DNA of 64,000 bases from Crocinitomicaceae bacterium (lineage in GTDB: Bacteria > Bacteroidota > Bacteroidia > Flavobacteriales_D > Crocinitomicaceae). This document shows, piece by piece, positions 47,994-52,893 of this stretch; position 1 is the first letter of the stretch, and each line of letters begins with the position of its first letter. The stretch covers positions 19,886 through 83,885 of the forward strand of contig JANQWC010000005.1 of the NCBI GenBank assembly GCA_030730025.1, given 5' to 3'. Made by a program: the position numbers and the translations under genes. The notes under the pieces were generated by a model that did no database searches, was not told the DNA's origin, and saw only the letters and a program-made list of their open reading frames with translations.

Positions 47994-48839
47994 TCAAAGA
48001 ACCGATTCACACAACATATTGTCGATCAGCCGCACCTCTCCACAAAAAGCCGCCACACAACAAACTTGCATTTGCTGCCATTCCGTGCAGTTTTCCAAGG
48101 TAATTGGATCTACAATTTCAAGATAATCTATTTCCAAACCAGCTTGTTCAATAATTGCGCTTGCGGCGATTTTAGCCTCCTCAAGCGATATTTTTCCGAC
48201 GTTGGCTTTAACCAACTGCAGGGCTCTTGAAATAGAAACGGCATTTTTGCGCTGTGCGTGGGTCAATCTTAAGTTTCTGCTGCTCATGGCTAAACCGTCA
48301 CTTTCGCGGATGGTTTCACAGCCAATAATATCGATTCCGAAGCTGTAAAAGTTGTTGAGCAAACGGATAATAGCGAGTTGTTGGAAGTCTTTTTGCCCGA
48401 AATAAGCTTTTTGTGGCTGCACCAATGCAAATAAATGATGCACTACATGTACCACACCTTCAAAATGCCCGGGTCTGTGTGCGCCTTCTAAAAGCTGCCC
48501 AATTTTGCCAAGCGGCATAGGGGCAAAGGGTAAATCTGCGGGGTACATTTCGTTTTCATTTGGTGCAAAAATAACCAGATTGGGCAGGTGCTGTAACAAG
48601 GCAAGATCTGCCGAAAGCATTCTTGGATATGACTGTAAATCAGCGTTTTGATTGAATTGTTTCGGGTTTACAAAAATGGAAATAAGCACGACGTCATTCT
48701 CCCGACAGGCTTGTTCCACTAAAGACAAATGCCCTGGATGTAAAGCGCCCATTGTTGGCACAAAACCAATTTGTTTTTGCGCCGTGCGCTGTTGTGCACG
48801 CCAAAGGATTATTTCTTGTCTGGTAACAAAGGTCTGCAT
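47994..48839 (-). CDS. panC: pantothenate synthetase
   Basis: GFVPTMGALHPGHLSLVEQA, ISIFVNPKQFN, YFGQKDFQQLAIIRLL; ATG 48839 preferred (track start 48872 lies within a TAGCTTTG promoter element). Confidence 0.95.
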   Translation of the reverse strand: MQTFVTRQEIILWRAQQRTAQKQIGFVPTMGALHPGHLSLVEQACRENDVVLISIFVNPKQFNQNADLQSYPRMLSADLALLQHLPNLVIFAPNENEMYPADLPFAPMPLGKIGQLLEGAHRPGHFEGVVHVVHHLFALVQPQKAYFGQKDFQQLAIIRLLNNFYSFGIDIIGCETIRESDGLAMSSRNLRLTHAQRKNAVSISRALQLVKANVGKISLEEAKIAASAIIEQAGLEIDYLEIVDPITLENCTEWQQMQVCCVAAFCGEVRLIDNMLCESVL

Positions 48840-48908: not shown

Positions 48909-48916
48909 TAATTTTG
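48909..48916 (+). promoter_or_regulatory. -7 promoter element TAATTTTG upstream of the glycogen synthase-like gene
   Basis: perfect TAnnTTTG, 17 nt from ATG at 48934. Confidence 0.55.
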
Positions 48917-48933
48917 CTAGCATATTTATATAA

Positions 48934-49755
48934 ATGGAAAAGAAGAAAATACTATTTATTTCTCAAGAAATCTTTCCTTTTTTACCCAAATCTGAAATTT
49001 CTGGAAGCGCGCGTCGCATTTCTCAAGCAGTTCAAGATGCTGGTAAAGAAATCCGTGTGTTTACTCCACGTTTTGGCGCAATCAACGAAAGACGCCACCA
49101 ACTCCACGAAGTTATTCGTTTGTCGGGCCTCAATATCTCTATAGACGACCACGACCACCCGCTCATCATCAAAGTTGCTTCTATTTCAGCAGCCAGAATG
49201 CAGGTGTATTTTATAGACAACGACGACTACTTCAAACGCAAAACTTGCCTGCAAGAAGAAGACGGCAAATTCCACCCAGACAACGACGAGCGCGCCATGT
49301 TCTTTTGTCGTGGCGTTTTGGAAACCGTCAAAAAATTAGGTTGGCAGCCAGATGTCATTCATTGCCATGGCTGGCTCACTGGCATCATGGCTTTGTACAT
49401 CAAATACATCTTCAGCAAAGACCCACACTTCAAAGAAACAAAGGTTGTCTACAGTCTTTACAACGAAACCTTTGACCAACCCTGGGACCCGCGTTTTGCC
49501 GAAAAGCTCGCTTTCGATGGCTTTCCGCAAGACCTCACCGATGCGCTCAAAGACACCAGTTGTGAAAACCTCACCAAAGTGATCTTAGCACATTGCGACG
49601 GTGTCAACATTGCCAGCGAAGCGCTAGATGCCAACTTACAAGCGCTCTACGACGAAGCCAACATCCTTAAACTTCCTTATTTTGCCGAAGAGCATCAGGG
49701 TAAAGAATTGGCTGCTTTCTTTGACAAAGTAATCGACGCTAACGTCCTAGCCTAA
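48934..49755 (+). CDS. glycogen/starch synthase-like protein, GT5 N-terminal domain only
   Basis: KKKILFISQEIFPFLPKSEISGSARRISQAVQDAGKEIRVFTPRFG, PDVIHCHGWLTGIMALYIKY; ends at 273 aa with no C-terminal GT1-type domain. Confidence 0.88.
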   Translation: MEKKKILFISQEIFPFLPKSEISGSARRISQAVQDAGKEIRVFTPRFGAINERRHQLHEVIRLSGLNISIDDHDHPLIIKVASISAARMQVYFIDNDDYFKRKTCLQEEDGKFHPDNDERAMFFCRGVLETVKKLGWQPDVIHCHGWLTGIMALYIKYIFSKDPHFKETKVVYSLYNETFDQPWDPRFAEKLAFDGFPQDLTDALKDTSCENLTKVILAHCDGVNIASEALDANLQALYDEANILKLPYFAEEHQGKELAAFFDKVIDANVLA

Positions 49756-49759
49756 GCTC

Positions 49760-51046
49760 ATGAAATCCTTAAGCGCACTTCTGCTTTTGCTGTTGGTTGC
49801 CACGGCATGTAACAAACAAGATTCCGGTTTAGGTAAAGACATCATCGATCCAAATGCGCTGCTCAACGGCACCACCACCGATACCTTTGAACTCATAACT
49901 TATTCTATCGTAGAAGACTCCACCGAAACAAAAAATGCGTCGAACGTATTGTTGGGTTCTTATGTAGATCCTAAGTTCGGTAAGGTAGAGGCGTCGGTAT
50001 ACACCGAATTGCGTTTGCCTGGCCTCAACCCTGATTTTGGCGATGCTTCCTTAATTGTCATCGATTCATTTGTCTTGGCTTTAGAATATGTAGGATATTA
50101 CGGTGACCTCAGTGCGCAAACTTTTGAAGTGTATGAGCTTACCGATTCACTGCAAAACGCAGCAACAGTCAAATACTACCAATTTTCTACCCTGAATACG
50201 GGCAGCACCAATTGGGTAGCAGCTGGCCAAGGCACCATTACCCCAGACCCTATCAACGATGCTGTAGTTGCGGGCGCTGAAGTAGACCCACAATTGCGCA
50301 TTCAACTAGACACCAACCGCGCTTGGGATTTCATCAACGAGTCCAACACCAATCCGGCTACTTTCGCCACCAACGCGGCTTTCCAAGATTATTTCAAGGG
50401 CCTCAAAATAGCGGTCAACAACCCCAATCAAAATGCAGGTCAGGGCGCAATTCTCTATTTGGATATCAACAACAACCCGGCCTCCAAAATGACCATCTAC
50501 TTTACAGTAGCCGGCGTCAAGAAAACCTACGACTTCACCATCAATTCCAATTGTGCCGACTTCACGCACATAGACCACGAGCAAGCCAACACGCCAGTTG
50601 CTGCCTTACTCGCCGATTCTACCATAGGTCAAAAAGCTTTTTACGCGCAAGCCAATAAAGTGCGCGCCATGGTCAAAATTCCTGGACTAGACCATCTCCC
50701 AGACAACATCGTCATTCACCGTGCTGACCTCAGTTTGCCTGTACAGTTCCAAACCGGTTACCGCTACAAACCGGGCTCTCGCATTACAGCGGCCAGCAAA
50801 TTGTCGGCTACCGATGTGTTTTATACATCGCTCGGCATTGCGGGGCTCTATTCGGACACCAAAAAGCAATACGATTTAGATATCCGAGCTTACCTCCAAT
50901 CTTTGGTCAATGGCAAACTCGAAAACACCGGTATTGTGGTCTCTCCACTCTTTTTCAGGAATTCTGCCGAACGCATTGTTTTCAATGGCGTAGAAACCAA
51001 CAACAAGAAAAAACCCAAACTCGTCGTTACCTATACAACTTATTAA
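49760..51046 (+). CDS. DUF4270-like lipoprotein
   Basis: lipobox LLVATACNKQDSGLGKDIIDPN; DTFELITYSIVEDSTETKNASNVLLGSYVDPKFGKVEASVYTELRLP. Confidence 0.82.
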   Translation: MKSLSALLLLLLVATACNKQDSGLGKDIIDPNALLNGTTTDTFELITYSIVEDSTETKNASNVLLGSYVDPKFGKVEASVYTELRLPGLNPDFGDASLIVIDSFVLALEYVGYYGDLSAQTFEVYELTDSLQNAATVKYYQFSTLNTGSTNWVAAGQGTITPDPINDAVVAGAEVDPQLRIQLDTNRAWDFINESNTNPATFATNAAFQDYFKGLKIAVNNPNQNAGQGAILYLDINNNPASKMTIYFTVAGVKKTYDFTINSNCADFTHIDHEQANTPVAALLADSTIGQKAFYAQANKVRAMVKIPGLDHLPDNIVIHRADLSLPVQFQTGYRYKPGSRITAASKLSATDVFYTSLGIAGLYSDTKKQYDLDIRAYLQSLVNGKLENTGIVVSPLFFRNSAERIVFNGVETNNKKKPKLVVTYTTY

Positions 51047-51048
51047 TT

Positions 51049-52893
51049 ATGTGTGGAATTGTTGCATACATAGGCAAAAATGAAGCCTATCCTGTCGTTA
51101 TCAAAGGACTCAAAAGATTAGAATACCGCGGCTACGACAGCTCGGGCATTGCCTTGCATCAAAATGGTGCCCTCAACGTGTACAAGCGCGTTGGCAAAGT
51201 GAGCAATCTAGAAGATTTTGCCGCCAACCAAGACCGCAGCGGACATGCCGCCATTGGCCACACGCGTTGGGCCACCCACGGCGAGCCCTCTGATGTCAAC
51301 TCGCATCCGCACACCTCAATGGACGGCAAAATTGCCCTCATCCACAACGGCATCATCGAAAACTACGATGTCCTCAAGCAAGAATTGATCAAAAACGGCT
51401 ACGTCTTCAAAAGCGCTACCGATACAGAAGTGGTAGTTCATTTAGTTGACTACATTCAAAAGAAAGAAAACGTTTGGTTTGGCGAGGCTTTGCGTTTGGC
51501 ACTTAACCACGTTGTTGGTGCATACGCTATTGTCGCGATGTCCTCGGACTACCCAAATCGTTTGGTGGCGGCTCGCAAGAGTAGCCCGCTAGTTGTAGGT
51601 ATCGGCAGCGACGGCGCTTACTATTGTGCCTCTGATGCCACCCCAATTGTAGAATACACCAAAAAAGTGGTATACCTCAACGACGAAGAAGTAGCCGTGA
51701 TAGACCTCGAAGAAGGCCTCAAACTCTACGACATCGCAGACCAACAAAAAACACCATTCTTCCAAGAACTCGAGCTCGAGCTCGAGGCCTTAGAAAAAGG
51801 CGGTTACGAGCACTTCATGCTCAAAGAAATCCACGAACAACCGCGTTCTATCCACGACTGCTTCCGCGGTCGTCTGAACTCCGATGAAGCCTGGGTTGCC
51901 CTTGGCGGTATCCGCGAGTACGAGCAAAAAATGATTTCTGCCAACAGACTGATCATCGTTGCTTGTGGCACGTCATGGCATGCAGGTTTGGTGGGCGAAT
52001 ACCTTATCGAAGACCTCGCACGCATCAACGTAGAGGTAGAATACGCCAGCGAATTCCGCTACCGCAACCCTATTCTCAACGAAAACGACGTCGTCATTGC
52101 CATTTCGCAATCTGGCGAAACCGCCGACACCTTGGCTGCACTCGAATTGGCCAAATCAAAAGGCGCTACCATCTTGGGTATTTGCAATGTTGTGGGTTCT
52201 TCTATTGCCCGCATCACAGACGCAGGTTCGTATACGCATGCAGGCCCAGAAATTGGGGTCGCATCTACCAAAGCCTTTACCGCTCAGGTAACCGTTCTTA
52301 CGCTCATGGCCCTCTCTTTGGCACACAAAAAAGGCACCATTTCAGAATCTAAATTCCGCCAGTTATTGGCCGAACTCGAAGCAATTCCAGAAAAAGTGAG
52401 TCGTGTATTGGGTACAGATGCCGAAATCGAAAAAATTTCCGCTATTTACAAAGATGCGCCAAACGCACTTTACCTCGGCCGTGGAAGCTCCTTCCCGGTG
52501 GCCTTAGAAGGCGCGCTCAAGCTCAAAGAAATTTCCTACATCCACGCCGAAGGCTATCCTGCAGCAGAAATGAAGCACGGCCCAATCGCCCTCATCGACG
52601 AAAACATGCCAATCATTGTAATCGCCACCCAAGGCAATTCTTATGAAAAGGTTGTTTCCAACATTCAAGAGGTCAAGGCCCGCAAAGGAAAAGTCATTGC
52701 AATTGTCACTGAAGGCGACGAACAAGTGCGCAACATGGCTGACCACGTGATCGAAATACCTGAAGTCGACGAATTCTTAGTGCCACTGCTCGCCACTATT
52801 CCACTCCAATTGCTCTCTTACCACATCGCGGTTATGCGTGGCTGCAACGTAGACCAGCCAAGAAATTTGGCGAAGAGTGTGACGGTAGAGTAA
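51049..52893 (+). CDS. glmS: glutamine--fructose-6-phosphate aminotransferase (isomerizing)
   Basis: MCGIVAYIGKNEAYPVVIKGLKRLEYRGYDSSGIAL, HTRWATHGEPSDVNSHPH, SQSGETADTLAALE, RGSSFPVALEGALKLKEISYIHAEGYPAAEMKHGPIALI. Confidence 0.98.
   Translation: MCGIVAYIGKNEAYPVVIKGLKRLEYRGYDSSGIALHQNGALNVYKRVGKVSNLEDFAANQDRSGHAAIGHTRWATHGEPSDVNSHPHTSMDGKIALIHNGIIENYDVLKQELIKNGYVFKSATDTEVVVHLVDYIQKKENVWFGEALRLALNHVVGAYAIVAMSSDYPNRLVAARKSSPLVVGIGSDGAYYCASDATPIVEYTKKVVYLNDEEVAVIDLEEGLKLYDIADQQKTPFFQELELELEALEKGGYEHFMLKEIHEQPRSIHDCFRGRLNSDEAWVALGGIREYEQKMISANRLIIVACGTSWHAGLVGEYLIEDLARINVEVEYASEFRYRNPILNENDVVIAISQSGETADTLAALELAKSKGATILGICNVVGSSIARITDAGSYTHAGPEIGVASTKAFTAQVTVLTLMALSLAHKKGTISESKFRQLLAELEAIPEKVSRVLGTDAEIEKISAIYKDAPNALYLGRGSSFPVALEGALKLKEISYIHAEGYPAAEMKHGPIALIDENMPIIVIATQGNSYEKVVSNIQEVKARKGKVIAIVTEGDEQVRNMADHVIEIPEVDEFLVPLLATIPLQLLSYHIAVMRGCNVDQPRNLAKSVTVE

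Follow-up and report, generated by a model that had tools for sequence, protein, structure and literature searches.

Glycogen and starch synthases of the GlgA type (CAZy family GT5; structures 1rzu, 2qzs and 6gne) carry a PF08323 N-terminal domain together with a GT1 donor domain. A GlgA-GT5 fragment of Bacteroidetes is mentioned in one sentence in the available text of a 2024 review, which also describes Bacteroidetes glycogen synthases of the GT3 type (PMC11046441), and BT_4307 (Q89ZR9) of Bacteroides thetaiotaomicron carries a putative glycogen synthase annotation (PMC10797578, PMC8941943). Both very probably belong to the same family as the short GT5 protein described here, sGT5; for neither one does the available text of these three papers report the gene order, an analysis of residues, the distribution or the function. 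A pull-down with a vitamin B12 probe also lists BT_4307, at a ratio of 2.6 in one condition, a value that may be background (PMC8941943). The operon neighbor of sGT5 is bamH, which encodes a subunit of the BAM complex; bamG, encoding another, is also adjacent in deep lineages. Bt4306 of B. thetaiotaomicron is BamH (PMC12578637). In Flavobacterium johnsoniae, bamH (Fjoh_0823) is essential and its expression system uses the fjoh_0824 promoter (PMC12611786); judging from the locus numbering, fjoh_0824 is likely the sGT5 ortholog. We found no functional, binding or essentiality study of any sGT5 ortholog in the open-access literature, and the main text of a Porphyromonas gingivalis Tn-seq paper, as far as it was available, does not name the locus. 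The bamH link, active-site loss, residue signature and reduced-genome retention described below appear to be new, since no earlier report was found in the open-access literature, which excludes most subscription papers.

The sGT5 gene lies in a 64,000-nucleotide stretch of a Crocinitomicaceae genome, the whole of which was analyzed and is called the window here. Its open reading frame is intact and encodes 273 amino acids. PF08323 (Glyco_transf_5) covers residues 5 to 236 (profile positions 1 to 225 of 239; E = 3.3e-47), and Pfam gave no match to PF00534 or any other C-terminal domain. This bears out a preliminary description of the locus, made from the DNA alone, as a GT5 N-domain of 273 residues lacking a GT1 domain. 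Only the first ~230 of the ~480 positions of the NCBIfam GlgA/starch synthase models aligned to sGT5, with scores far under the cut-offs. Because the DUF4270 gene begins at 49760, 4 bp past the stop codon, there is no GT1 domain downstream. Comparison with a full-length GlgA elsewhere in the genome had been proposed, and a single GT5 was found: no second copy occurs in the source genome (1.78 Mb, 81% complete) or in a 100%-complete congener (G041). No signal peptide was seen by inspection, and sGT5 is predicted from its sequence to be cytosolic. The candidate TAnnTTTG promoter motif also occurs at -25/-26 in two congeners of the source genome.

Table 1. Features of the sGT5 locus, in window coordinates
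Feature	Coordinates	Strand	Basis or remarks
sGT5 (short GT5 protein)	48934..49755	+	Rossmann-type GlgA N-domain only; GT1 donor domain missing
Candidate promoter, TAATTTTG	48909..48916	+	Fits the TAnnTTTG motif of Bacteroidota -7 promoter elements; 25 bp upstream of the start codon
Residues 17-24 (L-P-K-S-E-I-S-G), a degenerated form of the K-x-G-G-L loop for the donor phosphate	48982..49005	+	Alignment
Beta-meander, residues 41-96, with R41, G48, R53, L57, H58, R62, L63, K80, Q90, Y92, F93 and N96	49054..49221	+	Conservation
W137 (signature) and H-C-H-G-W, residues 137-147	49342..49374	+	Gly146 stands where synthases have the Asp of HxHDW
Tyr176	49459..49461	+	Stands where synthases have the His of T-I-H-N
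C-terminal helix, residues 252-268	49687..49737	+	AlphaFold2 helix; alignment; likely homolog of the final helix in full-length GlgA
bamH, DUF4270 surface lipoprotein	49760..51046	+	PF14092, E = 2.9e-40; NCBIfam BamH_fj, E = 5e-24, under the model cut-off
glmS	51049..52893	+	TIGR01135, E = 2.6e-246; co-directional with sGT5
panC	47994..48836	-	TIGR00018, E = 1.4e-83; divergent; conservation spans most Bacteroidia and ends with the class

The fold of sGT5 is that of the synthases. An AlphaFold2 model built from 56 sequences (pLDDT 90.6, pTM 0.91) was matched by Foldseek to 6gne, 1rzu and 2qzs, the best PDB matches being starch synthase IV and the glycogen synthases of Agrobacterium tumefaciens, Pyrococcus abyssi and Escherichia coli. 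sGT5 shares the N-domain fold and sequence, and probably the C-terminal helix, with these enzymes but differs from them in lacking the GT1 domain, in the replacement of the KxGGL loop, the HxHDW aspartate and the TIHN histidine, and in occurring in genomes without GlgC over cut-off. The altered positions are those that we take to be Lys15, Asp137 and His161 of E. coli GlgA. At the first of these sites sGT5 has P-K-S-E-I-S where full-length relatives have K-T-G-G-L, a motif present in the linked full-length relatives and most canonical copies and absent from all of the short forms shown. The absence of this loop had been pointed out before, as had the expectation that sGT5 alone would not function as a glycogen synthase; the alignment confirms the former and makes such a function very unlikely, and the replaced residues suggest that sGT5 is non-catalytic.

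The C-terminal helix was examined with a hidden Markov model (HMM) of full-length GlgA C-termini. Scores above 0 bits were obtained for 54 of 90 short forms versus 31 of 800 decoy C-termini, and scores above 5 bits for 10 short forms versus 1 decoy, a signal that is modest because the segment is short. Since the sGT5 C-terminal helix aligns and scores with that of full-length GlgA, the GT1 donor domain was most probably removed internally and the helix probably kept. Thus, the preliminary statement that the protein stops before the GT1 domain was correct as to the missing domain, but internal excision describes the protein better than truncation.

Thirteen signature positions (R41, G48, R53, L57, H58, R62, L63, K80, Q90, Y92, F93, N96 and W137) are near-invariant in the short forms. 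Most are also kept in the linked full-length relatives, R53, H58, R62, L63 and Q90 are unconserved in canonical second-copy GlgA, and Y92 is common to all three groups. The catalytic positions show the opposite pattern. Using the strands of the predicted model (residues 58 to 70, 73 to 84 and 89 to 95), the strand register would place H58, R62, S83, Q90 and Y92 on one face.

A match to sGT5, nearly always single-copy and with orthologs of about 250 to 310 amino acids, was present in 195 of 197 Bacteroidia genomes that were each at least 90% complete. The remaining two (G373 and G400) still gave none after a profile search. Their assemblies are fragmented (410 and 300 contigs, respectively) and relatives in their families carry the gene, which makes an assembly gap the likely cause. 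The dN/dS of sGT5 against the closest congener was 0.040, below the values for bamH (0.075), panC (0.097) and rfaE2 (0.070) and above those for glmS (0.025) and panD (0.018) in the same comparison. Apparent GT5 fusions were rejected, as the open reading frames of 344 to 478 amino acids at three loci (L171, L172 and L178) are N-terminal over-extensions. A scan of viral contigs gave no viral homologs.

The local gene order was as first described, with panC, panD and rfaE2 divergent from sGT5 and the DUF4270 gene and glmS co-directional with it. The bamH/DUF4270 gene is the next same-strand downstream gene at 66 of 72 Bacteroidia loci (65 by HMM and one, L102, by Pfam) and lies downstream at 16 of 17 out-of-class short-form loci, two of them with gmhB in between. 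At the out-of-class short-form loci, panC, panD, rfaE2 and glmS were all absent from the 5 kb examined. When an HMM built from in-class BamH sequences only was used for re-testing, 19 of 28 out-of-class loci gave matches (E = 5e-22 to 1e-6), always to the gene that follows the GT5 gene on the same strand, either immediately or after gmhB, and none of 3,583 ORFs gave an off-target match. Because bamH persists in out-of-class lineages without panC or glmS as neighbors, bamH rather than panC is the deep genomic partner of sGT5. The suggestion that the panC arrangement might be conserved therefore held for synteny across Bacteroidota, but panC is a neighbor at the level of the class only.

The association extends to full-length proteins. 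In lineages with full-length GlgA, bamH lies within 0.9 kb in 7 of 10, behind gmhB where the gap is resolved; bamG follows bamH in 6 of 6 deep loci tested (three short-form and three full-length; E = 8e-46 to 2e-82). The order at most linked full-length loci is glgA-gmhB-bamH-bamG. The loci L152 to L160, L145 and L146 show GT5-gmhB-bamH-bamG, often followed by a gene for a TPR-repeat protein (L134, L140 and others). In G007, a Bacteroidia genome with bamH away from the sGT5 locus, bamG directly follows bamH (C2:1716736-1719243). The DUF4270 protein of the window scored 84.7 and 47.3 bits against NCBIfam BamH models with cut-offs of 420 and 670 bits, respectively; since it falls so far under them, many BamH proteins of Bacteroidota lie beyond the narrow range of these models.

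In a maximum-likelihood tree of the GT5 N-domain, 26 Bacteroidia and 15 out-of-class short forms formed one group (100/99), and 18 of 19 other-copy GlgA sequences formed a separate one (100/99). Two short forms from another family (L145 and L146) nested inside the gmhB/bamH-linked full-length forms (99/86), a placement that indicates a second GT1-domain loss. These data show that sGT5 is related to the full-length GlgA-type GT5 synthase encoded upstream of gmhB and bamH, and they suggest that the GT1 domain was lost in two separate lineages of this group. The full-length proteins of the deep glgA-gmhB-bamH order, for which NF010698 (PRK14098) is the nearest NCBIfam model, mostly have the signature residues in common with sGT5 and have bamH downstream. 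Unlike sGT5, they keep the GT1 domain and, outside the Chlorobiaceae-like sequences, the catalytic residues. The full-length GlgA of the Chlorobiaceae-like loci (L161 and L271, family f17) has R-V-S-A-L for K-T-G-G-L even though the GT1 domain is present.

The gene is not confined to genomes with BamG or BamH. A Bacteroidia genome of 490 kb and 21.8% GC (G317, loci L287 to L312), the sole genome of its order in the sample, has sGT5 between eno and gyrB (E = 2e-79) with the signature complete. No significant match for bamH, bamG, panC, panD, glmS, rfaE2 or gmhB was found in this genome. Some divergent BamH genes (in G312 and G347) escape the DUF4270 model, so BamH was also sought in G317 with our own HMMs, which likewise gave no match, though a very divergent BamH copy may exist. 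The same genome keeps a POTRA-domain protein of 580 amino acids (L291:14716-16455) and a Mur ligase. In the Chlorobiaceae-like lineage, locus L161 has the order glgA-gmhB and the signature is kept, with no BamG or DUF4270 match in the genome; this agrees with the available text of PMC12611786, which describes Chlorobiota as lacking BamG and BamH. A role in glycogen synthesis is also unlikely, because no GlgC over cut-off was found in the examined genomes where sGT5 is the sole GT5 and because GT3-type synthases are reported from Bacteroidetes (PMC11046441).

The gene neighborhood makes it natural to ask whether sGT5 is a dedicated factor for BamH, or for BamG and BamH together, acting as a cytosolic regulator, chaperone or translational coupler for the outer-membrane BAM canopy. 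The downstream position of bamH inside and outside the class, the bamG gene behind it at every deep locus tested and the use of the fjoh_0824 promoter to express F. johnsoniae bamH all favor this explanation. We nevertheless judge it unlikely, since BamH works at the cell surface while sGT5 has no apparent signal peptide, the available text of PMC12611786 and PMC12578637 does not name sGT5 as a BAM subunit, and the Chlorobiaceae-like lineage keeps the signature without a BamG or DUF4270 match. The 490-kb genome keeps both gene and signature without a match to either subunit, so sGT5 is not strictly a BAM factor, and the best reading is that its role is not strictly BAM-dependent.

Enzymatic explanations are weaker still. 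If sGT5 were a new kind of enzyme or sugar-binding protein with its activity moved to the signature face, the polar conserved residues H58, R62, K80, Q90 and Y92 could form the binding or catalytic site; no recognizable catalytic motif is present and no precedent was found, and we give this idea a low probability. In GT-B enzymes one domain holds the acceptor site and the other the donor site, and pairs split into two proteins, such as Alg13/Alg14, exist, which would allow sGT5 to be the acceptor half of a split enzyme with a separate donor half. We consider this improbable. The N-domain has itself lost residues on the acceptor side and in contact with the donor, with replacement of the active-site Asp and His positions as well as the KxGGL loop, and all PF00534 matches in the source genome, which is 81% complete, lie in frames of two-domain size (380 to 435 amino acids). 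That sGT5 is a decaying glycogen synthase relic carried in the operon is scarcely credible: the catalytic residues are lost and BT_4307 bears a glycogen synthase annotation, but the signature is intact, the gene is found in 195 of 197 genomes and it is kept at 490 kb. A frameshifted remnant was likewise rejected on the open frame, the low dN/dS and the phylum-wide retention. The preliminary description had looked to a GT1 domain beyond a frameshift, or to absent purifying selection, as signs of such a remnant; instead, bamH adjoins the gene and dN/dS is 0.040.

Taken as a whole, the data are best explained, and on balance probably so, if sGT5 belongs to a phylum-wide pseudo-glycosyltransferase family with a core non-catalytic role. 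The ancestor would have resembled the full-length GlgA-type GT5 encoded upstream of gmhB and bamH, from which the GT1 domain would have been lost twice. The KxGGL loop and the Asp and His positions would then have decayed, while another set of residues, mostly already present in full-length relatives, stayed nearly invariant. One face of the three-stranded beta-meander (H58, R62, S83, Q90 and Y92, with R41, R53 and K80 nearby) would be the binding site for a partner protein or an anionic ligand, and by way of this binding sGT5 may regulate or scaffold a core process. The retention pattern implies that this job needs no BamH, BamG or glycogen synthesis. Because the phylum-wide neighbors are mostly envelope genes (bamH, bamG, gmhB and glmS), we tentatively suggest cell-envelope biogenesis as the process, though the envelope-gene association may reflect nothing more than operon history, and the 490-kb genome lacks nearly all of those neighbors. 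The full proposal is more doubtful: that sGT5 is an essential cytosolic pseudo-glycosyltransferase, present throughout the phylum, that might sense an anionic envelope precursor (or bind a core partner) and so tune envelope biogenesis in Bacteroidota. We know of no counterpart of such a regulator in Proteobacteria.

The annotation of BT_4307 as a putative glycogen synthase has already led to the suggestion that B. thetaiotaomicron stores glycogen (available text of PMC10797578). sGT5 occurs in nearly every sampled Bacteroidia genome, usually just before bamH, a gene essential in F. johnsoniae, and is kept in a genome reduced to 490 kb. If our reading is true, sGT5 would be an uncharacterized protein at the core of one of the major gut phyla, with signature residues that would offer a direct mutational test.
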